Part shown: positions 35,765 to 57,635 of the stretch, piece after piece
How the letters are laid out: each line of letters opens with the position of its first letter
How positions within the stretch are numbered: the first letter of the stretch is position 1
Assembly: GCA_004565275.1 (NCBI GenBank)
Contig: SDOX01000093.1
Span: 1 to 64,000 of the forward strand
Source of the DNA: Nannochloropsis salina CCMP1776
Lineage: Eukaryota; Sar; Eustigmatophyceae; Eustigmatales; Monodopsidaceae
Length of the DNA: 64,000 nucleotides
Direction: 5' to 3'
The notes under the pieces: model-generated
Databases searched by the model: none
What the model was told of the DNA's origin: nothing
What the model saw: the letters and a program-made list of their open reading frames with translations, nothing else
Program-made: the position numbers and the translations under genes

Positions 35765-36867
35765 ATGGCCCGGTCTTGCATTTTTCGTCTGGCATTGTTT
35801 TGTGCCATCCTCCTTTGCCTCTCAGATGGTACGTCCCAGAGACTGCTAGGTGCCCGGGCCTAAATTTTTTGTTTTCTCTGTGGGCCATCATGTACCCAAG
35901 CGTGATAGATAATTGTCAATTTTTAAAATATGCAGATGGACCGTATAAATGCTGGTAATGTGATTTTCTTGATGCCCAAGTATATGTACTGATACCCCCA
36001 GAAACCTCGGCTTCGCACCCGATCGGTCCGCACCATGTTTGCGATTTAGACAAAAGTTCAAGTCTCACATATTTTAACTTATCTTCTTACTTCAGTATAT
36101 GGAAAAACTTCGAACGACATATGCGAGGTGAAAGGGAAGGAGGTAGTCGACAAGGTCACCGGGCTAGTCTTCCCGATGCACCGTATTCTTCCTCACGGGG
36201 GCAGAGGCCGCGAGCTCAGTCTCCTGGGGGTTGGTCCTCGGCGGAAGAACCTCTTCGTTGTAGAGGTCAATGTGTATGCTGTGGGGCTGTACTTGGAAAC
36301 TTCCCAGCTGAGCCGGCTCAAAGCCTTTCGAGGCAAGAGCTCGGAGGCCTTGGCCAAGGAGGCGAAATACTACGCCACCTTGATGAAAGAAGGGTCCGGC
36401 TTGAATCGCGCCCTCTACCTGACTTTCGCGAGGACCGTCCCGGCAGGGAAAATCGTGGAGGCGCTTGCGGCGGTGGACGGCGTCAAGAAGGAGGTGATGG
36501 CTGACTTCAAGAAATCGCTGCTTACAGCCATAGGCTCTTCACTCAAGGAGAAAGAGACGTTGACACTGGCATGGACGGTAAGGAAGACGTGTCGAGAAAG
36601 CCGGGAAGGGCTCGCACGTAAGATCTTGATTGATGAATTCTTTTTGAGCTGCCCCCTTCTCTCTTTATTCATCCTTTCTCTTCGAATTCTCCTCTCACAT
36701 TCCAGCCGGACGACCGATTGTCTCTCTTTGTACGAGACAAGCCTGTCAAAACATTTCCAAGCCTGGAGCTTGCTCGAGGTATCTTCAACCTCTACCTTGG
36801 AGAGAAACCTATCTCTCCCGAGGCCAAAAAGGGCTTTGCTGCTGTGGCCCCCCAACACATAAATTAG
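35765..36867 (+). CDS. Chalcone-isomerase-like protein with signal peptide
   Basis: Three exons in phase: 35765-35828, 36096-36577 and 36706-36867, giving 235 residues. Exon 1 encodes a clear signal peptide (RLALFCAILLCLS). The body shows the CHI fold pattern: an early GLVFP, then VGPRRKNLFVVEVNVYAVGLY, LYLTFARTVPAGKIVEAL, and near the end F.SLELARGIFNLYLGEKPIS with PEAKK. That matches the chalcone isomerase / fatty-acid-binding CHI-like family. Such proteins outside plants usually lack enzymatic chalcone isomerase activity; some bind fatty acids in plastids. The signal peptide implies entry to the ER, either for secretion or for onward plastid import; there is no obvious ASAFAP-type motif. 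The substrate is unknown. Confidence 0.8.
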
Positions 36868-37829
36868 CCGGACAAATGTTGAATGAGGGATGAAAGGGAA
36901 CGACGCAATGGAGAGAGATGCTTCACAAAGGCACATGAAGTGCAAAGTTCGGAGCTGTACGTCATGCTTGCTCGTCTGGGGCACTAAACGGAGAGGTCTG
37001 AACCTCCTCGGAACAAGTGGTTACTCCTGACCAAAACCGCCCGAAAGCAAAGTTATGCGAGTCACAGTGGGTATTTTTATGTTGAATGCGTTTCAAACAC
37101 TTTGTCTTGACCGGAAAGAAAGAATTTCATAGGGGAGGGAGGGAACAACTCGTTTTTATGGCTCGGCTCGGTTCAGCGAGGAGAGGAGGTCGTGTTGCCC
37201 CTCTTAAACATGTTTTTTAAAGGAACTTAGTGCAGGACATAGGGGGCGAGTAAGCGAGTAACAGCGTCTATTCACAGCATTGATTTCCATAGACAGCGGC
37301 GAAATCTGCATGTCAAGGACGAAAGACCATCGTTGTAATTTTGCATGACCTCCTCATTTCCACTAGAATGGAGTGCCATGATGAGACAGGGCTTTCTCGC
37401 GCGAGCATCAGGTTCCCCTGAAGTCCTTTGCTGGCCAATTTGAAGCCATGTATAGCCATGTTTTGAAATTTGCCTTGTGTGGGTCGCGCGGTGGTCGCAG
37501 TGTCGGTGGCTCAGGGCATTATTTGTCCCCCTCCACGTGTCCGATACGTTTTCGCATCTCGCCCATGGTCACAAGCGATTTTGCTCGTGACATTTCAGTT
37601 GGAGATTTCCCTTTCAGACCTGCCCTCATTCAACCTGTCACTTGTCCCTGTTTCGGCCCAGCAAAAAGACCGACATGCGATGAGGTGAATCAGTCACGAC
37701 ATTGTCCGCTTCAGGACCCCGCACAACATTCATTTCGTGCCCTACGCCCTCAACAGACCCTACCCTACAGCGACCTCCCTCCCTTCGCGCCCGTTCCGCT
37801 CGGCTACAAGTACGGACAAGCAGGGAGGC
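36868..37829. other. Intergenic region upstream of the antiporter gene
   Basis: No supported gene. The antiporter frame is open upstream to about 37737, but the first ATG is at 37830; a 5' leader exon could be present. Nothing else is recognisable. Confidence 0.45.
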
Positions 37830-40800
37830 ATGGAGCCCACTGCGGGGGTCGTAGCAGCGTCCGCAGGTGCGACAACGCCAGCGGATGTGTTTGGGGCGCT
37901 TGGGATTGGAGGACCACCAATTGAGGCGGCGATGGCCTTCCACCGTTGGCTCCAAGGGGAAGAGGCGGGATTGGACGAGCCCAGGCCACGCAGCAGCTCC
38001 ATATACTTCCAACCGGAGGGAGGGATCATGTCGGGGCATGGCGTGCTGGAGGATACTCTGTCGTTGTTCATGGTGCAGGTGAGGCGGGGAAAGGATGGGG
38101 AGGGAGTGGGCTTCTCTGTTACGATCCTACTGACCCTCCTCTCGGATTCGGTGGGGCTTCCCAGGCGGTCATCATCATCACAGTGACACGCTTGCTCTCT
38201 TTGGGCACCAAATGCCTGAAGCAGCCGCGCGTCATCATGGAGGTGGTGGGGGGCATCCTCCTGGGTGCGTGACAGGAAGCAGGGCTGGGAGGGAGGGAGA
38301 AGGGAGAGAGAGAGGGAGGGAGGAAGGGAGGGGGGGAGGAAGGGACGGTGGCGGTGGACACCCATCTCCCTGACACGGCTGACCCCATCTCCCCCCCCTC
38401 CACTCCAGGTCCGTCTGCCCTCGGACATATCCCCGGGTATCTTGACACGGTTTTCCCGAGCCAGTCCCTCGGATACCTAGCGCTGGTCGCCAACATCGGC
38501 CTCGTCCTCTACCTCTTCCTCGTCGGCGTTGAGCTGGACCCCGAGGTGCCTAGTCCCGCGGATCGGGGGAAGGGAGCGGCCTGGGGGGGAGGGGCAGGAT
38601 CCCACGGTGACTCTGACCCCCCGCTTCTCTCTCCTTTCCTTGTACTCCGCGCGCCTTCTTCCAGGTCCTCCGTCGCAACGGGCACAAAGCGGTCTCGATC
38701 GCCGTGGTTGGGATCGCCATCCCCTTCGGCATGGGCTGCCTCATCTCCCCCCTCCTCTTCAACAAGCTCCTCATCAAGGAGCCCGGGTAAGCGGGGAGGA
38801 TGGAAGCGGGGGCAGAAAGGAGAAGGGAGCAGGCTCCTCCCAGTCGGATGATGCTAGTCGGCCTTTCTCGGCAATTTTCGTTGATTCGTGTCTTTTCCCG
38901 GGCCCAACCGTCGCCGTGTGGGCCCCTGGTTTGCGTGACTTGAGGCGCCCAAGTCCTCCCTTTCCACGTCCGACACCCCCCATCGCTCTCTCGCGTGCTC
39001 CCCCCCCCTGATCTCACACTCGCCCGCTCGATCTGCCGCTTTCCGCGCTCGCCACCTTGACAAGGACCCGTCGCCTCGCTCAAGCACCCTCTTTCCCTTT
39101 CTCCCTCCCTCCCCTCTCGTCGTCCCCACAGGTACGAAGGCGCCGCCTACAGCTCCTTCCTCGTCTTTGTGGGCGTGGCCATGTCTATCACCGCCTTCCC
39201 CGTTCTCGCCCGCATCCTCCTGGAGTCCAAGCTCATCCTCTCCACGGCCGGTGCGCCCCCCCTCCCTCTCGATTTGGAAATCTGCGCTCGGACTTTGCGT
39301 CGACCCGGATCGGCCACCCTCGCTTTCGAGCCCTAAGCCCCTCCCTCCCTCCCTCCCTCCCTCCCTCCCTCCCTCCCTCTAGGCGTCATGACCATGGGGG
39401 CCGCGGCTCTGAACGACGCGATCGCCTGGTGCTTGCTGGTCTTGGCGCTTTCCATCGTCCACTCTGGGGAGAATAAACTGACAGCTCTCTATGTCTTCCT
39501 CGCCATCGCGGCCTACGCCACTTGTGAGGGAGGGAGGGAGGGAGGGAGGGAGGGAGGAAGAGAAGGAGGGAGGTAGAGAGGTAGAGGCGGGGGGGAAAGA
39601 GAGCGGACGGGGAGGACTGCCTCCTTCCTTTTGTGCCCGTCATGCCATAGGGTCGGTCCATCTCTCGCCCTATCCGCCTCTCACCCCCCTCCCTCCCCAC
39701 CTTCTCTTTCCCCCCCGCCCCTGCCTCCCTCCCCATCGCCTTCTCCAATTTCCTCCAGTCCTTTTTGTCGTGATTCGGCCCGGCCTTCAAGGAGTCGTCC
39801 GATGGGTGGAAATGACAGGTATGCCTCTTCCCTCCCTCCCTCCCTCCCTCCCTCCCTCCCTCCCTCCCTCCCTCTCTCCCTCCCTTCTTCGGTCCCTTGC
39901 CTGACCGTGAGGATTCTCCCCATTCAAAAGCCTCCACTGTTCATTAACAAACCCCTCAAACCCCTCTTTCCCCCCCTCTCACCCTCCCTGCCTTCCCCTT
40001 CCCCTTCCCCTCCTCTCCTCCTTGTCCCTGGTCAGGCTCCTCCTCCCTCCGCTCCCTCCTCTTCGCCCTCCTCATCTGCTGCATCTTCCTCTCCGCCTGG
40101 ATCACTGCCTTCCTCGGGGTAGGGGGGCAGAGTTCAGGAAGGGAGGGAGGAAGGGAGGGAGGAAGGGAGGGAGGAAGGGAGGGAGGAAGGGAGGGAGGGA
40201 TATGTGGAGCGTCGAAAGTGAGCAGTAACCGCTCGGGGCTCAGCGTCCTCATGCCTTCGTGACCCTCCCTCCCTCCCTCCCTCCCTCCCTCCTTCTTTAG
40301 GTGCACGCCATCTTCGGCTCGTTCCTAGTGGGGATGATCATGCCCCGGGACGGCAAGTTCACGCTGCACATGTGCGAGAAGATCGACGACCTGGTCAGCA
40401 ACATCTTCCTGCCCCTCTACTTCGCCTTGTCGGGTACGGAGCACTGGGAGTGCGGGAGGGAGGACGGGAGGGAGGGACGGGGGAAAGCGGACAAGGCCGC
40501 AAGGGGTCATGCTTCCTCTCTCTGTCCTTTAGGTTCATCCCCCGCACGGTCCCCCCCCCCTTCCCCTTCCCCTCCCTCAGGCCTCAAGACGGACGTGGGC
40601 TCCATCAGCCACGCCATCGGGGGGGCGATGCTCCTCCTCGTCATCCTGGTGGCCACCGCCGGGAAGTTCATCGGTTGCGCAGGTACCCCCCCTTCCCTGG
40701 CTGTGGACCTCCTTGCCTGCTCACGTCGGTCTCCCGGACCGTGCCTGCGGGCTCAGACCTCCCTCCATTCTCATCCTGTGCTCGGGCGAGACGCCTTCCC

Positions 40801-43800
40801 TCCCCATCCTCACTTCCAGCGTGTCCCCAGGCCCTCCTATCTCGAGGGTCATCTCCCCCGTCCCTGCTTATCGATTCACAAAGAACATCCCTCAGCCTGA
40901 TCGCACACTCCTTACTGGATACTCCCCCCTCTTCCCTTCCCCCCCCCGACCTCGCTGATCGCCGTCCACGGATCGCCCTCCCATGCCACCCCTAGGTCCT
41001 TCCCCCCCTCCTCACCCCCCCCCCCTTTCCCTACCCTCGCCCTCCTTCACCCTCTTCGCCTCCGTAGGCACGGCGCGTCTAAACGGCATTCCCTGGCGGG
41101 AGTCCTGCGTGATCGGCGTCTTGATGAACACGAGGTAAGGCCGAAGGGGATGGGAGGTAGGTAGGTAGGTAGGTAGGTAGGTAGGTAGGTAGGTAGGTAG
41201 GTAGGTAGGTAGGTAGGTAGGGAGGTCTCTTTCCTGAGCCGGGAGGGAGGTCGGTCTTTTTCCTGGACCCTCCTACTCCTTGCTTGTGTCACCCGCCTTC
41301 GCGTTACAAGCGATCCAGCCACCATCAATTCCAGTTTCCCTCCCACGGGACTATCTCCCCCCACCCCCACCACCCTTAAACCAACCCTCATCCCCCGTCC
41401 TTACCCTCCCTCCCTCGGCCCCTCATCCCCCGCAGGGGCCTCGTCGAGCTCATCGTCCTCAATCTTGGCCTTCAGGCAAAGATCTTGGACGTGGAAATCT
41501 TTACCATCATGGTCATGATGGCCCTCATTACCGTGCGTGGCCACTCCCTCCCTCCCTCCCTCCCTCTTCCCCTCCCTCCCTAGCTTTCTTACTTTTTCCC
41601 TGTCCCCTGATTAACGATTCGGATGCATAATCCCATACGAATATTTCATGATATATGTCCTCATACGCGAATACAATGAGCTGATTTTCAACTTCGAGTC
41701 TTTTCCCGCCTTCCCTCCCTCGCTTCCTCCCCCCTTCCCTCTCTCCCTCCCACCCTCCCTCTCTCCCTCCCACCCTCCCTCGTTCCAGACATGCATCACC
41801 AGCCCCGTCGTCGAATTCATCTACCCGCCCAGCCTGCGCTTGCAAGCTTCGATGGACTCCCTCAAGGTTGGAACCGGGAGGAGGGAGGAAGGGAGGGAGG
41901 AGGGGAAGGAGGGGTGAAGGAAGGGAAGGAGGGAGCGAAGACGGGCTGGGTGGGGGCGCCCGAACTCAATACCACATCTCTCTCTTCCGCACGGCAGGCC
42001 ATGGGGGCGGTGGTCACTCCGGGAGGGACGGCAGTCACCGAGGAGGGCGTGGTGATCGAAAACGATATGGGTGCGGCACATCCCACCCTCCCTCCCTCCC
42101 TCCTCCCGCCCTGTCCCCCCCGCCTTCTCGCTACCTTCTTGTCCCTCCCGACCCGCACTCACCTCCTACCCGTCTCCCTCTCCCTCCCCTCCCTCCGTCG
42201 GTCCCTCAGTCGAGCCCACCCCCCGTACTCACGTCCAGGGCGAAGGCTCTTTCCAAGCGGCCTTGTCGGCGGAGGAGGGGGAAAGGCGGCCCATGGTCGA
42301 GACGACAGGAGGGGGCGGTGAGCACTGCCCTTCCTTCCTCCCTCCCTCCCTCCCTCCCTCCCTCCCTCCCTCCCTCCCTCCCTCCCTCCCTCCCTCAGCC
42401 TCCTCCTCCTTGGATCGCCTCATTCGCGCGGGTCGCCCTCCTTCTTGACCCCTCTCCCTCCCCTTCCCTTCCCCTTCCTCCCTGCCCTCCTCTTTCCCAG
42501 TCACGGGGTGGCTGCAGCGCCAGCGCGCCAAGGGCGTGGTCGGCCGAGGCCTGATGATGATAAAGAGGCCCACTCCCTCCGCACAGCGGCTCAAGGAATC
42601 GCTCATGAGTCGGTGCGCTTCGGACCCTCCTCTCTCCCCTCCTTCCTCCGCGCAGTAGCCTTCCCTCCCCGCGTGCCCCCCTTCTCTTGCCCTCCCTATC
42701 CATCCCTTTGCGGCCTCATCTTCCCCCTCCCACCCTCCCTCCCTTCTTCCCTCCCTCCCTCCCTCTCCAGTACTTGGCGCGTAGGCGTCGTCATCGAACG
42801 GATGAAGGACCTGCCCGAGACCATGTCCCTCCTCTACCTCTTCGCACCCATCTACAGCAACAATAGCCAGGTACCTCTCCTTTCCTCCCTTCCTCCCTGC
42901 CTCTGCCCCTATCTCTCCCTCCTTCCCTCCGTCCACCAGGCCCTTCGTCGCGTCCGCTCTCTCCTTCCATGTCCACACGCATTTTTTCGGCTCGAACCCG
43001 TTCCCCTCCCTCCCTCCCTCCCTCCCTCCCTCCCTCCTTCGTAGATGGACGTGACGGCTATGCACTTCATGGAGACAGAGCTCAACTTCAACGACGTCAT
43101 GATCGCCTCCCACCCCGAGAAGGTGCCTGGGCGGGAGTTTGGGCGAAGGAGAGAGGGAAGGGGAGGGAGGGAGGGAGGGAAGAAAGGAGGGAGCATCCTA
43201 CCCGTTCGCCTCAAGCTCCTCTCACGGCGCGAGACACCTCCCCCTCCCTCCCTCCCTCCCTCCCTCCCTCCCTCCCTCCCTCCCTCCCTCCCTCCCTCCG
43301 TCTTCCTCCCTCTCTTCCTCCCGCCCTCCCTCCTCCCCAGCTCTCCTCCCCCCGCCCGTGGCCTCAGCAGCAGCGGCCTCGCGAGCCACATGCACTCGAA
43401 CAGCAACAGCCTCGGGAAGGGGAGTAGGCCCCCTCGGATCCCCCTCCATCTCGCCCATAACCTCCGGTGCGTCTCTCCCTCCCTCCCCAGTCTCGGAGCT
43501 TTTTCCTCTCCTTCTCCCGCGTCTTCCCCGACTCCTCCTGTCAAATCCCTCTTCTTTGGTTTTCGGCCCCACCATGGGACACCACTAGCCTTGTCCCCCT
43601 TTACCCCAAACCCAAGGGAATCAGTCTCTGCGCCTCACACTTCCCCCAGCGGTCCTTCCCCGAAAGAAAGACTCGCACTGCCCTCCTTCTCCCCCTTCCT
43701 TTTCACGCTCGCCCTCTCATCTCACTGCCCGCTCGTCCGCCCCTCTCCTCCCCTCCCCCTGGGCGATGATGCCCCGCCCGCCATGTTTTTTTCCCTGACG

Positions 43801-45282
43801 CGACTTTCCTTCCCCCTTCTTCCTTCTCCACAGCTCGCCCTCTCCTGCCGTGGCCGAAGAGAGCGCGGGGAGCGGAGGGCGGGACCGTCATCACAGCTAT
43901 GCTTCTTACTCCCCGACGGCGGCGGTTTTGCGCGGGGTGGCCGATAAAGTGCAGCGTTTCGGAGAGGGCGTCAGGTACGGAGGGCGGGAGGGAGAGGGAG
44001 AGGAAACGTGGAGGGTAAGGGATCGGCTTCTCTGTTTAAGGAGGGGGTGATGCTGGAGGGGTGGGAGGCGCGGTGGGAGGAGGAGGAGGAGATGGCGAGG
44101 GGTTGTCTTTGTTCACGTTTCTTCCTCGTTTTCCCTCCTGATGCAGGAACTCGACGCTTTCGCGCAATTTTTCCTCAAACAAGCTCCACAAAGATGGAGC
44201 CGAGGCCCGGGAGAGGGAAGGAGGGAGGGAGAGCAGCACGAGTCGGGCCGACCGACGCGACAGCAGCAACGTCCATCCGGGGAGCACGTCCTCCCTGAAC
44301 GCCTTGCCATCTCTAGACTCCCACCACCACAAGCATCACAAGGGTATATCCGCAGCTTGTTCCTCCTTTCCCTTCCTCCCTTCCTTCCTTCCCTCCCGTT
44401 TCTTCCACCTGCCCCTGGCTTCTTGCGACCTGAGCCTCTCCTCTTCTCCTTGACAGGCGTCCAGGAGTTCGGCGTGATCGGGGAAGAGTTGTACTCCCGG
44501 ATGGACATCGAGGCCTTTCTGATGATCGTGCGCGGATTCCAGCCCGCAGGTGCGCGGGCGGAAGGAAGGGGGGGCGAGTACCAAGTCGCCTGGGGCAGGG
44601 CGTGGGCGGGTTGGAGACAAGAGCAGTGGAGTGTTCGCTGGGGCGCATTCTAGGGACTGACAGCAATTCCCTTCCTGCCCTTTTCCCTCCGTCCCCTCCC
44701 TTCTCCCTCCTTCCCTCCTTCGTTTTGCCCTCCCCCACAGAACCCGCCACCACGAGCACTAGCAGTGTCAAACTTGAGAGGCCCACAGCATTGCGCGCCG
44801 CTGCTGCCGCTGCGGTCGCTTCCTCCAAAACAGTCCCTCCAGCCCTGGGGCTAGGGGGAGGCGGAGGAGGATTGGAGGGAGGGAGGGAGGGGGGAAGGGA
44901 GGCAGGGAGCAGCCTTCCACCCTTGTCCAAGGCTACCTTTCAGCCACCGTCCCCAATGTGAGTGCAAGGAAGAGTAGGAGGGAGGGCGAGGAGGGAGGCG
45001 TCGAGCGTGAAAGCTTGCAGGAATACACCGGGTCTAAGATTGTTCCCTCTTCTCACGGACAGGCCCACGGCCTTATCCGTGAAAATCCGGAGTGTGGTGG
45101 CATCCGAGGAGGGAAAGGCGGGGGGAGGGAAAGAGGAGTCGAAAGGGACGGGAACTGCCGGTGGCCCCGAGACCGTGCTGGCGAGAAGAAGAAGAGAGGA
45201 AGATGGAGAGACGGAGGTCAGGCGGGGACCAGGCGGCGTGCGTGATGGGATCAATGGGGCGGGCCACGAAGGGAGGTTGTGA
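37830..45282 (+). CDS. CPA2-type cation/H+ antiporter (CHX/KefB-like), 24 exons
   Basis: Membrane exchanger of monovalent cations for protons. Exons: 37830-38078, 38165-38264, 38409-38545, 38665-38786, 39132-39250, 39383-39523, 39759-39818, 40036-40118, 40301-40433, 40581-40682, 41068-41134, 41436-41532, 41789-41866, 41998-42070, 42210-42317, 42501-42612, 42771-42870, 43045-43122, 43341-43466, 43834-43974, 44147-44343, 44457-44549, 44741-44957 and 45063-45282. Landmarks: TRLLSLGTKCLKQPRVIMEV, VVGGILLGPSALG, LYLFLVGVELDP, SITAFPVLARIL, the ion-site region MGAAALNDAIAWCLL, GSFLVGMIMPR and NTRGLVELIVLNLG. A cytosolic tail ends with EFGVIGEELYS. Exons 1-18 (653 codons) and 19-24 are each in phase, but the junction 18/19 is not. 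The sequence expected there (VLF-GGPD to DLFIVG of CHX proteins) is absent and lies at 50074-50864. With it, the protein would be 1119 residues. Confidence 0.85.
41155..41222. repeat. (TAGG)n microsatellite in antiporter intron 11
   Basis: About 16 near-perfect copies of TAGG follow the donor of intron 11. A shorter TAGG run occurs at about 48820-48842 in the neighbouring gene. Confidence 0.95.
43123..43340 (+). other. Suspicious antiporter intron, phase-breaking junction
   Basis: The interval starts with a donor (AAG|GTGCCT) and ends with an acceptor (CCCCAG), with a GGGA tract and then a long CCCT tract between. Splicing it joins phase 0 to an exon whose open frame needs phase 2. In the joined frame a TAG appears about 28 codons later. 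The four exons at 50074-50864 enter at phase 0 and leave at phase 2, so they fit exactly here. The likely join point lies within the repeat tracts. Confidence 0.7.
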
Positions 45283-46482
45283 TTTGTCGGCGACGGAGTA
45301 GATTCGGGATGGGGGGTACGAGGGTATGGCTCAGGGCAGCGACTGGTACCGAAAAACGCTGAGTGCCAGTCACAAGGGCGTGGTGAGGGCCATAGCAATA
45401 GAGACAGGGTAGTAGCCTGCAGGCGTATGGTCGCGCGCGTGCGAGGGTCGGACAAGGAGCTTCATGGGACCGTAACATGTGCTAGAAGCCTAATGCCTCT
45501 TTCGGCGCGGACACGTAGGCACCGGAATGCGGGTAAATGCGAAGCATCCTAAGGCTACATGGCACTTTTAGATGTCGCTCGCATACGAGAAATAGAGGGA
45601 AGTTTTAGTGGAAATATATTCTTGTGCGGAGGGGGAAAGGGGTACAGCAGCCAGTGTGTCGGTGGTCGACAGTTCGTAAATTTTGCTTTCACATGACTCA
45701 AGGATAAAATCAATTGACCTTGCCAACACGTGCGTGGTGGGGGAAAATCGGGTGCCGTGGCCCTCCATGGATGGTACTGGGTGTTTGTGTATACTTCCAA
45801 TCCTTTCGGATAGGTCACATTAAAAGCAGAGGGGCGCGTTAAAGAGGGAAATAGTACACGGCATGACTGACCTTTCTTTCTTCAAGCAAAACAATCGCTT
45901 CAAATGCTTTCCACGTATCGCTTGTTGTCCATCCACTATCTTCCTTTCCCTGCCTTCTCGTGACCTAAATCGTTTTCTCGCCCTCCTAGAGGGGGCGCAA
46001 GCTTTGGCTCTCTTCTGTCTTTCATTTCAACCTTCTTCAATTACCTGTGCGAGTCTTTGCTGCGAGTCTGGTCATCATATGCATCGGTGCAGCCTCCGTT
46101 CTCATCAGTTTCCGTCCCCGCTCACCCACTCGTCTGCCCTACTCTATCCATGCCGCTCGTCTCCTCCTCTATATGAAAGGGAATCTACCAAGGCCGCAGT
46201 ACCTCTTGCTACACATTAAGACGTGAAGAAATATAGCAATCCTTGAAAGCAGAGCACAATTTCGTGCATAAAATCCCGATACGGCAGAAAGTACGTTTTG
46301 TCGAGTAGAGACTTTCAAATGCTAAAAAAAATCCTCTCAAATGCTACGTTTCTATCTAACATTCCTCTCAAATTGCAGGTGTGGGCAAAGCTCGGGTGTG
46401 ATGCCGCACCAAAATGGCGGAATTGGCCACCTGTGAAGAATCATACGAGACAAAGCGTCAAACAAGGATACCCTCTACCCCT
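45283..46482. other. Intergenic region between convergent genes
   Basis: Lies between the 3' end of the antiporter gene (+) and the 3' end of the F-box/LRR gene (-). Several short frames on both strands have no domain, signal or splice support. No RNA gene recognised. Confidence 0.5.
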
Positions 46483-49400
46483 TCACCTTCTCTCTTTCAT
46501 TTCCTCCTCCCCCTTCCTCGTCCCTTCCCCTCTGACCTTAAGGCGGTTCTCGGTGTCGGCGTCCAGGATCTCGCCTTCGTCCAATATAGCCAGCATGCGC
46601 AGGCGTGGCAGGCTTTGCGAAGCCTGAGTGATCCGGTGTGGGAGAGAGAGGTAAGAGGGCTCAGGCCATGTGACGTGCCCGATCCATGAGCGCTGTCCTC
46701 AGGGAAGCCATCCGTCCCTCGCTCCTCCGAGCTTCGACGCGAAAAAAGCGACGCCCCTACCTCCCAAAGAAGGCTGGTTCCAATCCTCATACATGTGGAC
46801 TCGTCTCCTCTCATCACACGCCTCTCCCTACGCCCTATCGTTGGCCTATCCTTGGCGGCTTGCACTACTACTGCGTCTCTCATTCTCTCCGATTTACCTG
46901 CAAGAGGAGCGCCTGTACGGTCTCCAGCTGTCTCTCTTCATCCTTTCCATGCGTCAGAGAGACGTAGAGGTGCCGGAGGGTGCCCAAGGGAGGAGAGGTA
47001 GGGGTGGTGGCCGGGAAGGAGGAAGAAGGGGAGGGGGGAGGAGCTCGGAGGCTGAGAATTTTGAGGACAGAGCCCAGGCCACCGGCCCCGATGTGCGTGT
47101 TGCGGACATCCAGACGCCTGTGATTGCGTGGTTGGATGGTGAGGCGGGGGGGAGATATTGGGGAAGGGAAGGGCGCATCCTGTGGGAGGGAAAGCAGCAC
47201 AGGGAACAATGGGACCACATCGTTTCCCCGCCCGCCCCTCCTCCTCTCCCTCCATCCCCTACCGAAGCGCGGGCATGACCCTGTGCTTGACGAGTGAGGT
47301 GAGGAGTTGACTGGCCCCAAAGGGGGAGAGCCGGTTTCCGTGCAGATTCAGGGTCTGAAGGCGGGGAAAGAGGGGGCCTACGGACGAGGAAGGGGGGGAG
47401 GGCGAGGCGCGAGCGGCCCCGATGCGCCTACGATGTCGTGGGTGATTCGAAGCAAGGGGGGAAGCGCGCAAATTGATTTTTAGACGCAGATTTAGATTGA
47501 AGCTAGTCCGCGGACGAAACGTTTCGTGGGCGTCATAGACGCCCTCCCTCCCTCCCTCCCTCCCTCCCTCCCTCCCTCCCTCCCTCCCTACCTGAGCGCC
47601 TGCATGGCCGGCCACCCCACACAATTGAAGTTGTAAATCAAGCTTTCGCTCTCGTTTCCAAGTGAGAGATGGACGAGAGAGGGGAGGCAGCGTGCATACA
47701 GCAGGTCCTCGAAGTCTGCGGAGGTGACGCCTGAGGGAGGGAAGGTGGGAGGGTTGGAAGGAGGGAGGGAGGGAAGGAAAGAGATGAGGTTGGACGACGT
47801 GAATGTGACGCGATGATTGCAAGAGAAAGACAGGACACAATTTTCAGCCTCGCGCACAAAGCGACCTCGTTCTCTTCCACCCATCAGTCCCCTTCCCCGT
47901 TCCCTCCCTCATTCCCTCTCTCCCCGCCTGTCCTCCTTACCCGTATTCCTCAAAGAGAGGTCTTCCAAGCGGGCTAGGACTCCGCCCTTCCTGATTCCTT
48001 CCTCCAGCAGCACCCGCAGAAGCTCGAGGCGCCCGGAGCGGGAGTGAGGGAAGAGGGAGGGCGAAGAGGAGAGGTCGTTCAGGTGGAAAGTTCGTAAGGA
48101 AGGGAAGGCGCCTGGGGGGTAAGCAAGAGGGGAGGAGGAGGGGAAGGAGGGAGGGAGGGAGAGGCGGATGGAAGATGGAAGCGTGACTCATACCGAAAGG
48201 AAGGGGTGTATGAAAAGGGGAATAGAAAGGAGGGACGCAAAATCAGAGCAACAGATGATGTGAAGGATACAAAAGAGCTGGTGAAGCGCAAATGGGAGCA
48301 TATCCCTCCCATCTTTCCGCCCTCCCTCCCTCCCTCCCTACCTACCTTCCTTAAGCATGTGCGCCAGTTCCATGAGCTGAGGCATGAGTTCGTCTCCGTT
48401 CAAGCGGCCCAGGCGAAGGTGTCGCATCTAGGGAGGGAGGAAGGGGGGGAGGAAGGGAGGGAGGATGGGAGGGAGGGCGGGAGGGAGGGCGGGAGGGCGG
48501 GGAGCGTGGAGGGGAATCGAAAATTTTATGGGGGGGCAACGTCCTGTGGCAACAAAGAGAGCCTGCACGCGTCCTTTCTTCTTGTTTCCATCCCATCCAT
48601 GACCTTCCTCTTTCTCTCCTCCACCTCCTTGCCCTCCGGTCCCTCCCTCCGCCCCTACCTCCGAGCCCCTCGCCCTCAGCATTTTGTTCATGGCGGCGAA
48701 GGAGAGTGGGGAGAGGAACTCGCCCACGGCCAGGGAGGAGAGGGAGGACGAGGAGGCGAGCGCGTCGAAGACGGGGCTGGGGGGGGGGCAGGGAAGGAGG
48801 GAGGGAGGGAGGGAGGTAAGTAGGTAGGTAGGTAGGTAGGTAGGAGAGGAAAAAGAAGGGTTGGCCTCCTAGATGAATGACAAGTCGAGGTCAAATGGTC
48901 CATGGGACAGCAGGAAAAAGAAGAGAAAAACAATGCGATGAGCTCTCCATCCCTTCCTTTCCTCCTATCCCCCCGCTCCTTCCATTCTTCCTCTTTCCCC
49001 TTCCCCCTGCACCCCCCTCCCTCCCTCCCTCCCTCCCTCCCTCTACCCACCTCAAGGCATCTGTCTGGATCCAGACCATCTCTGAGACGGGAACCTCCTC
49101 CCCCGCCCCGACCTCGAAGCGAAGCTCCTCGGGCAAGAGGGCCAGGTGGACGAGGGAGCGGAGGTGTCCGTGCTGGAGGAGGGAGAGAGGGAGGGAGGGA
49201 GGAAGGGAGGAAGGAGAGGAAGGGAGGGAGGAAGCTGAGGACGTCGTCTCGATGTGGCCTTCCAAGGGAAACAAGTCGATTGCAATCAAAACCCCTCCCT
49301 CCCTCCTTCCTTCCCTCCCCCCCTCCCTCCCCCTTTCCTCTCCCCCCTACCGCAATAGCAGCGGCGAGGGGACCTCCTTCCACCTCTTGCTCTGCTTCCT

Positions 49401-52133
49401 CCGCCGTCGGTCGGAAGAGGAGCCGAAGGGTGAGGTGCTGAAGGCGATGAGGACGACTGGAGGGAGGAAGGGAGGGAAGGAGGAAGGGAGAAAGGGAGGG
49501 AGGGAGGGAGAGAGGGAGAGAGAGAGGGCGTGAGTGAGTGATGGAGGGGGAGAGATGATGAAAGGCGGAGAATGCGTGAAGGGAGGATAAAGAGCACAGG
49601 GACTGATACGGGTACATGCCGCACGCAAGCAACAAGCTAGGTCGAGAGAAGAAACAAGGCAGGAAAAGCGCCCGGAAAAAGAGCCTAATCAGCTTTCCCC
49701 CAACAAATAGGGAGCCAGACGAGAGGCGCTCTCCACCACGCACCACGCCCGCAGCCCGTGCCCCACCACCCCCAGCGCCTTCAAGTCAAGGGAGGCGTCC
49801 AGACGCTCCAAATAAGGCCAGGGTTGGGTGGCCATCGCGGAAGCAAGGAGAGGGGCGGTGCCCTCGGCGGAGAGCCTGGCATGGAGGGAAAGAGGGGGGA
49901 ACAGGGGAAGGTGGCAGGGGAAGTCTCTACATGTCAGAGGTCAAGCCACGTGGTTTCGACCGAAAACCAGCTTCCCAGTCCAACGTCCCCTCCCTCCCTC
50001 CCTCCCTCCCTCCCTCCCTCCCTCCCTTCCTCCCTCCCTCCCTCCCTCCCTCCCTCCCGCCTCCCCCCCCCAGGTCCTCGTGGTCCTCTCCGGGTGCCCC
50101 TCGGACGGAGATTGCGTCGCCCTCACCTCCCGCTTCGCCCTCCACTCCCTCGTCAACATCACCATCATGCTCACGCCAGCTGCCCAGGTAGGGAGGGAAG
50201 GAGGGCGGGAGGGGAGGGGAGGAGGGGCGCAGGAGGCAGGAAGCACTTGGTGACGCCATCGCGCCTTTTTCGCTGATCCTGTCCTGTCGTCCCGGCGTGT
50301 CTCAGGAACAAGCCGATCGATACGCCGACTTCTTCGCAGACGTCGGTCCCAAAGGCCGCTTCCACAACGTGAACTTGCTCAGGTAGCGGGGGAGGGAGGC
50401 AGGGAGGGGAGGGAGGGAGGGAGGGAGGGCTCGTCGATTTGTGTGCTTGTGCTTGGCTTATCGTCAGCCTGGTCCCTGCCTACTGCAGGCTGGAGCCGGT
50501 TGAGCAGGAGACGGGCTTGGAGCGGACGCACGAGATGCTCATGAAGGACATATTGACAGAGGCCTCAAAGAAGGGTAAGGAGGGAGGGAGGGAGGGAGGG
50601 AGGGAGGGAGGGAGGAAATGGAGAAGGACTGGCGAGAGATAAGGAAAGGGCTCTTGTTCCCAACAGACGCGGACCCAGCCTCTTGTTCCCTCATCCCTTC
50701 CCTCCTTTCTCCCCCCCCCCCCCTCTCCCGGTAGGAGAGTTCGCCTATGACCTGATTGTAGTGGGTTACCTGCCCTCTGTCTGGGAGAACGAGCGAAGCA
50801 GCTCCAATTTTCTGGGGACAGCGGCCGGGAGCAACGTGAGCAGCGCTGCTCCATCCCGTAGCAGGTGAGGAATGGGGGGAGGAAGGGAGGGAGGGATGGG
50901 AAAGGAATGGAGGAAGGGGAGGGGAAAAGAAGAAGATGAAAGAGGAGCTTGGATAGATGTCTTCGACCTCCTGATGTCGAATGAGGTTTCCATTTCATAC
51001 CCTCGATCTCACACTGCTTCTCCTTNNNNNNNNNNNNNNNNNNNNNNNNNNNNNNNNNNNNNNNNNNNNNNNNNNNNNNNNNNNNNNNNNNNNNNNNNNN
51101 NNNNNNNNNNNNNNNNNNNNNNNNNAAAAAGATCCCTTTCTTTTCCTCTCCCGTGGTCATCGCTTACCAGGCTACAAACGTTCGTTCCTGGGCGCCCCAT
51201 GCCCCTTCCTTCCTCCCTTCCTCCCCCCCTTCCTCCCCCCCTCCCTCCCTTGTCTCGGACCGGGACGCCCAAGCATTTCGAATCCTCCACCCGCCCGGCC
51301 AGGGAGGAGGGAGGGGAGGGAGTGGGGAAAAGGGCGGTAGGAGAGAAGATTCGACAGGTCTGGACGTAGGCCCGGTAGGAAGATTTGGCGCGAAAGTTCG
51401 GGGACGTCGCGGCCAGGGCCTCCGTCTGGGTGGAGGGAGGGGTCCAGGGCGCGCGTGAATCCCTCCGAGGCACCTCGCATATACCCTCTATTCCTCGCTT
51501 ACCCTCCCCTTTGGCCACCCTCCGGGACGTATCCACCCTCCCTCCCGCCCTCCCTTCCGCCCTCCCTCCCCCCGCTCTCGCACCTCTTGCGCCCCTAGAA
51601 AGCTGATCACTTCCGAGAGCACGTTCAGATTCAAACTCTCCAGTAGTGTAGCAGCGGGGTCGCTGTGTCGTAGAGGGGAAGAGCGTATTCAGGAAGGGAT
51701 AAAACGGAGGGGAAGAAGGTGGGGAGGGAGGGAGGGAGGGAAGGAGAGGGGGAGGGAGGGAATACCTGTGCGAAGTTGCTGGTATCACTCGTCCCCTCAA
51801 CGCGGTTCCCGTCATCCTCCTGACCGCACGCTTCGCGCCAGCGCGTCGGCACTTGACCCCTCCGGACGCCTTCTTCTGCCGGGTATCCTTTCCCGGACAC
51901 GGAGGTACCAGGGAAGTGGACAGGCCCCGCCCAGAAACCGCCCCGTCGCGTCCTCCTCCTCCTCCTCCCAAGTTGCCTCCTCCCTCCGCACCTCTTCCGC
52001 TCGAACCCCCACTCGAGGCCCCTCCTTCTTCTCCCTCGCTGCCATTGCATCCGCCGCGTTTGACCCGCTTGCTGTGCGATGTGGGTAGGCTCACGTGGTA
52101 CATCCGACGTTTCCCGTTCCGAAGCCGGGGCAT
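46483..52133 (-). CDS. F-box / leucine-rich-repeat protein, interrupted by a gap
   Basis: N-terminal exons 52133-51766, 51662-51584 and 51425-51168 encode a basic, Gly-rich start and an F-box-like motif (LNLNVLSEVISFLGAQE, then TEALAATSPNFRAKSSYRAY). Ten further exons are in perfect phase with each other: 49875-49744, 49456-49351, 49172-49051, 48776-48659, 48427-48346, 48111-47941, 47730-47592, 47427-47263, 47117-46898 and 46623-46483. They encode LRRs of the ribonuclease-inhibitor kind: LQHLTLRLL, HLRSLVHLALL, MRHLRLGRL, LQTLNLHGNRLSPFGASQLL and LDVRNTHIGAGGL. F-box/LRR proteins usually select substrates for SCF ubiquitin ligases. The N-terminal part ends at phase 0, but the first LRR exon needs phase 2. 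So at least one exon is missing between 49876 and 51167, where a 100-N gap and opposite-strand antiporter exons lie. That the two parts are one gene is inferred from strand, order and domain logic. Confidence 0.68.
49987..50058. repeat. CCCT tract at the left edge of the displaced exon block
   Basis: A near-perfect CCCT array of about 70 bases directly precedes the first displaced antiporter exon. Similar tracts lie in the antiporter intron at about 43240-43300, which makes a repeat-mediated join possible. Confidence 0.9.
50074..50864 (+). CDS. Displaced antiporter exons (cytosolic domain piece)
   Basis: Four plus-strand exons in phase: 50074-50187, 50306-50382, 50489-50574 and 50735-50864, 407 coding bases. 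They encode VLVVLSGCPSDGDCVAL, ADRYADFFADVGPKGRFHN, a helical piece (ERTHEMLMKDILTEASKK) and GEFAYDLIVVGYLPSVWENE. These correspond to the CHX-family tail segments VLFFGGPDDREALA and YDLFIVGRGHG..W.E, which normally sit just before ELG.IGDLLAS. The antiporter at 37830-45282 lacks exactly this piece but keeps both flanks. Entry phase 0 and exit phase 2 restore its reading frame. There is no start codon, transmembrane part or stop here, so it is not a gene by itself. A second, truncated paralogue is the alternative. Confidence 0.8.
51026..51125. other. Assembly gap of 100 N
   Basis: Exactly 100 unknown bases, a size often used for gaps of unknown length. It lies 160 bases right of the displaced antiporter exons and inside the F-box/LRR gene. 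Confidence 0.99.
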
Positions 52134-55182: not shown

Positions 55183-57635
55183 ATGTTTCCAGTACCCCGT
55201 AGAAGAGGCGTGAGTGCCTTCCCCGTCCTATCCTTCTCCCTCCTTCTCGTCGTCTTCCAGAGTGGCCATGTAGCCCAGGCCTTCTTTACGCAGCCATTAT
55301 TCTCTTCGTCGACGAGCTCTTTCTGGACCGGGGCCAGGAAAGAGGTGAGTACCCCGGCCCTTCTGACAGTGACATACATTGGCACGCCTCCGACCTCCTC
55401 CCTCTTCCCCCTCCCATGCCCCTTTCCAGTCCCTGCACGCCAGCTCCTCGGACGTAACCACCACCAGCTCCTCTTCCTCCTCCTCCTCCGTCAATGTCGC
55501 CGCCTCCAGCCCCACGCCCCCCTCCACACCCGCGCTTAACCCCTACGTGAGCGCAAGCCGGACGACCGGTAGGATTTGCATCACAGAGCCTTCCCCCTTG
55601 CCGCCTTGACCCCCACCTCACCCGCCTCCCTCCCTCTCTCGCTCGTACCCAAGGCTCTGGACTCTCGCAACCGCTGGACCCCATCGGACGCATCGACGCT
55701 AGCCCCCAGGCTCTCTTGGACTGGGTGAAGGCGGGCCGGTGAGGCCGGGAGCGGGCTTGAGGGGGGAAAGGGAAGCTAGGACGACGGGGGGGAGGGATGG
55801 AAATAACCTTGTTCGACTCCGTGGCCCCCCGCTTATTTTGGCTTTTCTTTTTTCCCATTTTCTCTTTTCTCCCTCCCTCCCTCCTTCCCCTCCCTGTGTG
55901 ACGCGGCAGTGGGGAGCTCCACGAAGGTGTGGCTTTCACCCATGCCCCGTCCTCGGACGCAGAGGTGGAGGGCGAGGGCGGGACGGAGGCAGGGACTGAG
56001 GAGCTGGCCGGGTGGACGCTGCAGACTCAGGCTCCAGTACAGGCGGGCACCGTGCTGGTCTCCATCCCCAACGTGTTGACACTCTCACCTACCCGGAGAA
56101 AGTTCAAGCTGCCCACGGGAGCGGCCGCGATGCAGGTGGGAGGGAACCAGGGAGAGAGGGAGGGAAGGAGGGAGGGAGGGGAGGCGCGTGGGGTCTTTCT
56201 GGACGGCGCCTGAGATGCCTGTCTTGGTGTGGTGCTCATACTCCCTCCCTCCCTCCCTCCCTCCCTCCCTCCCTCCCTCCCTCGTTTACCCCCAAAGGGG
56301 CATCGCCACCACCCTTCTACGCCGCCTTCCCACGAGCCTCACAGAGGACTGGAAGCTTCTGACGGGCGAGTCGCTCCACGTCGGCCACGACGAGACCAGC
56401 CGGACGGTAGGACCTCGTCCCTCCCCCCCCCCGCCCCTCGTTCCCTCCCTCCCTCCCCCCTCGCCCTCGTTCCCTCCCTCCCTCCCTCCCTCCCATCCCC
56501 CTCCTTTTCCTCAGTTCCTGGTCCTTTGTCACGATCCTTGTCAATAGTCTGATCGGAACAAGATCGGAACAAGACAATCGCCTTCCTCCCTGACTCTTCT
56601 CCCTCCCTCGTCCCGCTTTCCCACCCTCCCTCCCTCCCGCCCTCCCTTCCTCCCTTCCTCCCTCCCTCCCTCCCTCAGGTCCTTTTCCGGCCCCTCCCGG
56701 AGTCGGACGAGTCCCGAGACGAGCTGATGGAGACCGTGACCACCGACGACAGTGTCGTGAAGGAGTACAACCCCTACAGAGAAGCAGAGCTGATGGGTGA
56801 GGCCAGCCTTTCCTCCCTTCCTCCCTCTCTCTCGCCCTCCTTCCATCCCCTGCAGTGCATTGCCGGCGCCTGTCGAAGGCTCGCCGAGTATTGAGTCATT
56901 CCCTTTACTCACCACCCGTCCTCCCTCCCGCCCTCCTTCCCTCACTCAGAACGTCGGGAGATCGTGATATCTTACATGGGCGGGAACATGAATCGAAGCA
57001 TGCGAGAGATCCTCAAGTTCCGGATCGCGCAGAAGAAGGTGGGGAGGAAGGGGGAGGGAGAAAGGGAGGGAGGGAAGGAGGGAGGGAGGGAGGGAGGGAG
57101 GGAGGGAGGGAGGGAGGGAGGGAGGGAGGGAGGGAGGGAGTGGTGGGTCGCAAGCCACGCAAAGGAGAGGATAGAGAGGGAGGCAACAAGATGGAAACAC
57201 TCAGCCGCGCGTTTTTGGCACGTCACAGATATTGTATCAAGTCATATCCGATATTTGCCACACCATGTACGGTCTTGGCCTCGGTAAGTTCCCTGTTTTA
57301 CCTCTTTGTCCTCTCGTGCTTTCCTGTCGTGGTTTCTGCCCCTTCCCTCTTCCTTGGGAGTGTCTTTTCTCTCCCTTTCACTCTGTTTTGCCTCCCTCAG
57401 CTATGATCCCCGCGACCGACTGAAAACCGCTTTTTGTCTATCTCCCTGGGCTCATCCCCCCCCTCCTCCAGTTCAATCTGTGAACGACATGGAGGAGCTA
57501 GAGGAGGAGCGTCAGATCGCGCAGACGCCGGAAGAGAGTTCGAGACCACTCACGTCCTCGGGCGGGGGGGCCCGATCTTTGGATTCGATCCTCGCCTGGG
57601 CGAGCAAGACGTTTGGAGAAGATGCAGGGCTGTAA
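55183..57635 (+). CDS. Plastid-targeted-type protein, weakly SET-like N-part
   Basis: Exons: 55183-55344, 55430-55568, 55654-55738, 55910-56135, 56298-56406, 56679-56796, 56950-57038, 57229-57283 and 57472-57635, about 382 codons. The N-terminus is a signal peptide (FPVLSFSLLLVVF) ending GHVAQAFF. The Phe after Ala resembles the ASAFAP plastid signal of red-lineage algae, and a Ser/Thr-rich transit-like stretch follows. The next part (ALLDWVKAG, then GWTLQTQAPVQAGTVLVSIP) recalls the start of SETD3/Rubisco-LSMT SET domains, but no catalytic SET motif follows. The C-terminal part is acidic and helical (EIVISYMGGNMNRSMREIL, ILYQVISDICHTMYGLG). Exons 1-4 and 5-9 are each in phase, but the join 4/5 is off by one, across a GGGA/CCCT intron. 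A small exon may be missing. Family not recognised. Confidence 0.6.
57063..57140. repeat. (GGGA)n tract after a donor site
   Basis: About 18 copies of GGGA, one with an extra A, shortly after the donor of intron 7 of the plastid-type gene. It is one of the longest of the donor-side G-rich tracts in this region. Confidence 0.95.

Follow-up and report, generated by a model that had tools for sequence, protein, structure and literature searches.

What does it mean when an algal gene reads in phase through 18 exons and again to its stop codon, is out of frame at the junction between the two parts, and can be repaired with exons that lie inside a neighbouring gene on the opposite strand? The question is posed by a CPA2 antiporter gene in the 64,000-nucleotide stretch of Nannochloropsis salina CCMP1776 contig SDOX01000093.1 analysed here (the window). 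The window opens with a telomere repeat of the TTAGGG type at positions 1-167, and TTAGGG telomeres have been reported in eustigmatophytes including Microchloropsis gaditana (PMC8570151). A light-harvesting protein of the genome matches VCPI-2, a chain of a solved photosystem (8zo9), from end to end of that chain (E 2.9e-136). The name VCP points to Nannochloropsis, and the source was taken to be an alga resembling Nannochloropsis or Microchloropsis. An earlier note, made from the letters of this DNA and a list of its open reading frames, had proposed that a block of four antiporter exons was displaced there, most likely by a repeat-driven misassembly, and that restoring the block gives an unbroken coding sequence of 3360 bases. 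We rebuilt antiporter exons 1-18 one by one and obtained 1959 nt with an exit phase of 0. Their transmembrane domain matched Pfam Na_H_Exchanger (PF00999, E 2.2e-54, profile 3-369 of 375). All four block exons are bounded by AG and GT, and the exon coordinates, splice borders and phases on which the proposal was built were reproduced throughout (exon 18 exit 0; block entry 0, exit 2). Joined directly, positions 43122 and 43341 are indeed out of frame, with a stop 28 codons past the junction; with the block inserted between exons 1-18 and exons 23-28, the coding sequence runs over the expected 3360 nt (1959 + 407 + 994 nt) with no internal stop. Only one of the AGs between 43290 and 43470 restores the frame without the block, and the exon would then begin at 43420; this in-frame acceptor ruled out the frame break as a self-sufficient proof. 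The gene as assembled (37830-45282) has at least 28 exons, and the mean reported for N. oceanica genes is 2.87 (PMC6610115). The features of the locus are collected in Table 1.

Table 1 Features of the antiporter locus and of its paralog (positions are those of the window unless a contig is named)
Feature	Position	Strand	Remarks
CPA2 antiporter exons 1-18, transmembrane domain and start of cytosolic tail	37830..43122	+	653 codons, exit phase 0
Suspect junction intron	43123..43340	+	out-of-frame junction; conserved tail absent here
CCCT tract, proposed collapse point	43242..43337	+	perfect run 43242-43299, 58 bases
Antiporter exons 23-28 to stop codon	43341..45282	+	994 nt, entry phase 2
LRR-like gene hosting the block	46400..52133	-	limits and frames by eye; phases disagree across block and gap
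CCCT tract left of block, proposed false join	49988..50069	+	perfect runs of 40 then 30 bases
Displaced antiporter tail exons (50074-50187, 50306-50382, 50489-50574, 50735-50864)	50074..50864	+	407 nt, entry phase 0, exit phase 2
Intron start that should lead towards exon 23, ended by gap	50865..51025	+	GT donor at 50865
100-N gap	51026..51125	.	sole N run in the 64-kb window
Second CPA2 antiporter (paralog)	C47:25179-29922 (L036:1679-6422)		same genome; 52% identity over transmembrane region

Whether the block belongs to an antiporter tail at all was not settled by standard domain models. Pfam found no tail domain in the block or in the joined protein, CHX17_2nd and CHX17_C being unmatched. 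Searches of the genome with these two models gave no match in the window; CHX17_C produced a weak match on contig C52 (E 0.47), and CHX17_2nd matched nothing anywhere, controls included. We therefore built a tail profile of our own. A scan of bacterial genomes returned 194 stretches with 159 relatives. The top 80 of these were retained; 77 of these 80 loci had an open frame of at least 250 aa with the motif, and the 21 of the 77 with at least 330 residues beyond the motif supplied the long CPA2 antiporter tails of the profile. An earlier contig scan had matched 103 stretches and yielded no relatives. Against the 21-sequence profile the block scored 10.8 bits at positions 240-292, the highest of 2000 shuffled blocks reaching 4.7, and the tail of the C47 paralog matched at the same place (positions 232-275). 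When all 1727 open reading frames of at least 20 aa in the window were compared with this profile, the frame carrying block exon 1 was outscored by one frame alone, that of a transmembrane exon, but its E for the whole window was no better than 0.41. BLASTP of the block against the paralog tail gave no significant match. These comparisons suggest, with modest support, that the block is probably antiporter tail.

A second profile was made of eight tails picked by the author: seven belonged to the set of 21, and the eighth was shorter. It gave the block 12.5 bits (highest of 2000 shuffles, 10.2). A construct of exons 17-18, block residues 1-112 and exon 26, with the linker removed, gave one match at 209-334 with 19.5 bits; the control construct without exon 26 scored 16.7 bits, and the natural tail with its linker 13.9. 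When exon 26 was shuffled within the construct, 0 of 2000 shuffles reached 19.5 and 2 of 2000 reached 22.5, the full score. Under the 21-sequence profile, adding exon 26 behind the block gave no gain beyond chance, as 991 of 2000 shuffles scored as high. Taken singly, the pieces were weakly placed by the eight-sequence profile, with higher-scoring shuffles for exons 17-18 (32 of 2000), exon 26 (13 of 2000) and the middle segment of the paralog tail (14 of 2000). By one of the two profiles, then, the block probably comes before exon 26 (44457-44549) in the tail, and the tail domain probably ends in that exon.

The left side of the block fits less well. Between the TAMHF position of exon 18 and the beginning of the block segment, all 21 bacterial tails hold 80-137 residues (the six lowest values, 80-81, may be alignment losses) and the C47 paralog has 126, counted from a MAFFT alignment; the window model has 22. 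Thus, about 58-115 residues (175-345 coding bases) are probably absent even with the block restored, as judged from homologous tails and from a placement of the exon 18 end made by eye and weak alignment. An alternative MAFFT placement shifts the exon 18 end to a later part of the tail, so that about 35 residues would be missing by comparison with one bacterial tail; since exon 18 is a single exon without interruption, this placement was not adopted. Another MAFFT alignment misplaced exons 16-18. The claim that the family position of the block suits the junction was not confirmed on the left side. Nor was the implication that the gene is complete once the block is added sustained, and the 3360-nt frame was rejected as a complete coding sequence, since a middle tail segment present in the bacterial tails and in the paralog is lacking. 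It follows that the phase 0-0 match between 43122 and 50074 carries little weight; the two sites are probably not spliced directly to each other in the natural gene, and the match is either fortuitous or reflects missing exons that total a multiple of three.

The missing middle was sought in several ways. None of the 1727 window open reading frames matched that part of the 21-sequence profile. With the paralog piece as query, a genome search of low power recovered the paralog and one weak match on C14 (E 0.99). A bacterial piece, in a search also of low power, recovered nothing; this search was uninformative because even the paralog was missed. Separately, viral contigs gave two weak matches, helped by the search pattern: one of 33% identity over query residues 10-72, the other of 36% over 23-67.

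We also looked for the block, and for the sequence around it, elsewhere in the 26.5-Mb, 103-contig genome. A DNA search returned the block itself and short repeat-like matches, and no second copy; 40 of 188 candidates were scored, the remaining listed matches being short and repeat-like. In the protein search, 4 of 4 matches were the exons of the block itself. No correctly ordered copy on another contig was found in the genome searches, and queries for overlapping unplaced contigs (43040-43241 and 51126-51510) returned only the window itself and short matches to repeat-rich parts.

Each of the two junctions has a perfect CCCT run of at least 40 bases (58 and 40). The tract reported on the left of the block was found at 49988-50069, and the N gap lies on the right, 161 bases from the block end, where 160 had been given. 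Perfect CCCT runs of at least 40 bases also occur in 3 of the 25 other antiporter introns, making the coincidence at the junctions, in a comparison drawn after the fact, suggestive and no more. The genome holds 985 exact matches to a 40-base CCCT run, overlapping ones counted, and the adjacency of block and tracts was dismissed as strong evidence because such tracts are so common. As a separate observation on the introns of this gene (38079-50734), perfect AGGG runs of at least 12 bases occur in 6 of the 25 non-junction introns, always in the first half, and CCCT runs of at least 12 bases in the second half of 6 of the 25 and the first half of 5. The intron 40119-40300 holds runs of both kinds, so that the two ends of this intron could pair.

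The opposite-strand gene that hosts the block also looks broken, in agreement with the statement that it is incomplete there. Its best-looking donor (51168) is in phase 0 and the next acceptor (49875) needs phase 2, the frame being assigned by eye; one of the nine GT sites in that host exon, at 51406, would fit the acceptor. Pfam found no F-box at E <= 1 in the host exons joined by eye and a weak LRR_4 match (E 1e-4, 22.9 bits against a cut-off of 27), so that of the former F-box/LRR label the LRR part is weakly retained and the F-box part is not. In the surroundings, a plus-strand coding stretch at 36100-36870 is presumably chalcone-isomerase-like, by a resemblance seen by eye, and the start of a plus-strand gene at 55200-56410 resembles, by eye, that of a SET-domain methyltransferase.

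A repeat-driven misassembly at the CCCT tracts is, on the sequence evidence, very probably the explanation of this locus, and here the interpretation of the earlier note stands, apart from its assumption that the block completes the gene. The observations comprise the exons and their frame, the search that found no second block, the homology of the tail and its missing middle, and the presence of tracts and gap; from them we infer that a collapse, a false join and a loss took place, and what the true order is. In the real order, exon 18 would be followed by the missing exon or exons (about 58-115 residues), the four block exons and exon 23 within a single gene, with a predicted full coding sequence of about 3.5-3.7 kb. 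In this gene, whose introns contain CCCT/GGGA tracts, the assembler would have merged two long CCCT tracts in neighbouring introns, so that exon 18 runs into exon 23 through 43242-43337, and the intron 43123-43340 would probably be chimeric, beginning as intron 18 and ending as the intron preceding exon 23. The sequence between the merged tracts would have been left over and part of it lost; the leftover piece, from the block to 51025, would have been joined through the tract at 49988-50069 to the neighbouring opposite-strand gene and closed off by the 100-N scaffold gap. A single assembly failure of this kind accounts for all the observations, and the absence of a further tail piece from the window is expected if sequence was lost. 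In its favour, the frame is unbroken only with the block, no second copy of the block was found, the block matches the tail, the displaced piece ends 161 bases before the sole N run, and the host gene is out of phase there. Against it stand the weakness of CCCT nearness as evidence, given the abundance of such tracts in the genome, the failure to find a correctly ordered copy or, in low-power searches, the missing piece, and the modest sequence support for the tail, Pfam finding no tail domain in the block and BLASTP no significant match to the paralog tail. Precedents for both elements have been described: the simplest estimate for Chlamydomonas is that 26% of intronic N gaps (104 of 393 informative) hide exons (PMC4938644), and simple repeats are given as a main cause of breaks in assemblies of one bird genome (PMC7757076).

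Recombination between CCCT tracts might instead have cut the tail middle out of the antiporter, perhaps as a circle, which then inserted at a CCCT tract of the neighbouring gene, damaging both. The presence of CCCT tracts at the 43-kb junction and at the left border of the block is in keeping with such an event, as is the telomere at the start of the window, since the chromosome ends of the related algae Monodopsis and Vischeria are rich in simple repeats (PMC8570151). A rearrangement of this kind would, however, have to break two genes at once and yet spare the splice sites and frame of the block, and its right border would happen to be hidden exactly by the only gap of the window; we consider it unlikely. 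Slightly less likely still is its specific form, in which recombination between intronic CCCT tracts excised the antiporter middle as a circle that was reinserted at a CCCT tract in the opposite-strand gene. If this were true, a circle opened at the 49988 tract would leave the exons missing from the tail within the N gap, on the right of the block and permuted, and intronic tetranucleotide tracts would be active exon movers, with exon movement driven by simple repeats.

It is very doubtful that the block comes from a second antiporter, as a fragment of it, and that the 37.8-45.3 kb gene is a natural short-tailed variant. The existence of the C47 paralog means that the antiporter family is not single copy, and the in-frame acceptor at 43420 would leave the gene readable without the block. 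Exon 26, however, resembles the end of the tail domain begun by the block (eight-sequence profile only), and the protein search of the genome found no other part of a gene owning the block. An intact second antiporter in place was ruled out because the opposite-strand gene occupies the upstream side of the block, where upstream antiporter exons would be expected to overlap opposite-strand exons. That the assembly is correct and separate transcripts are joined by trans-splicing appears highly improbable. The splice sites and phases of the block would fit; another tail segment would, however, need yet another, unseen locus, and the missing middle segment weakens trans-splicing of exactly these pieces as it favours an assembly failure. 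Spliced-leader splicing, moreover, adds a 5' leader and not internal exons, which counts against this reading. In its favour, splicing of that type is reported in the related algae Monodopsis and Vischeria (PMC8570151). With misassembly as the preferred explanation, two genes here are probably wrong in the assembly. As an artefact, the locus warns that, at the repeat-rich ends of this alga's chromosomes, CCCT tracts can cause gene models to lose exons or exchange them; such errors can be recognised without reads when a gene is compared with a paralog from the same genome and with a profile of the tail.

Like the CPA2 cation/proton antiporters of the CHX/KHA1 type, the window gene has an Na_H_Exchanger domain and a long cytosolic tail with a segment that matches long-tailed bacterial relatives; unlike them, as assembled it is devoid of the tail middle and leaves CHX17_2nd and CHX17_C unmatched. 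Its closest comparison within the genome, the C47 paralog, shares 52% transmembrane identity and has a tail segment at the same profile place as the block. The paralog differs in having about eight exons by eye, as against at least 28 in the window gene, in possessing the middle tail segment, in introns that by eye contain no long CCCT tracts, and in a tail that BLASTP does not significantly match to the block. The nearest parallel for the error itself is offered by the gap-hidden exons described in Chlamydomonas (PMC4938644), where repeat-rich algal introns likewise lose exons to gaps and gene models skip conserved segments; at the locus described here, some of the missing exons would have been assembled in the wrong place and not merely left out.
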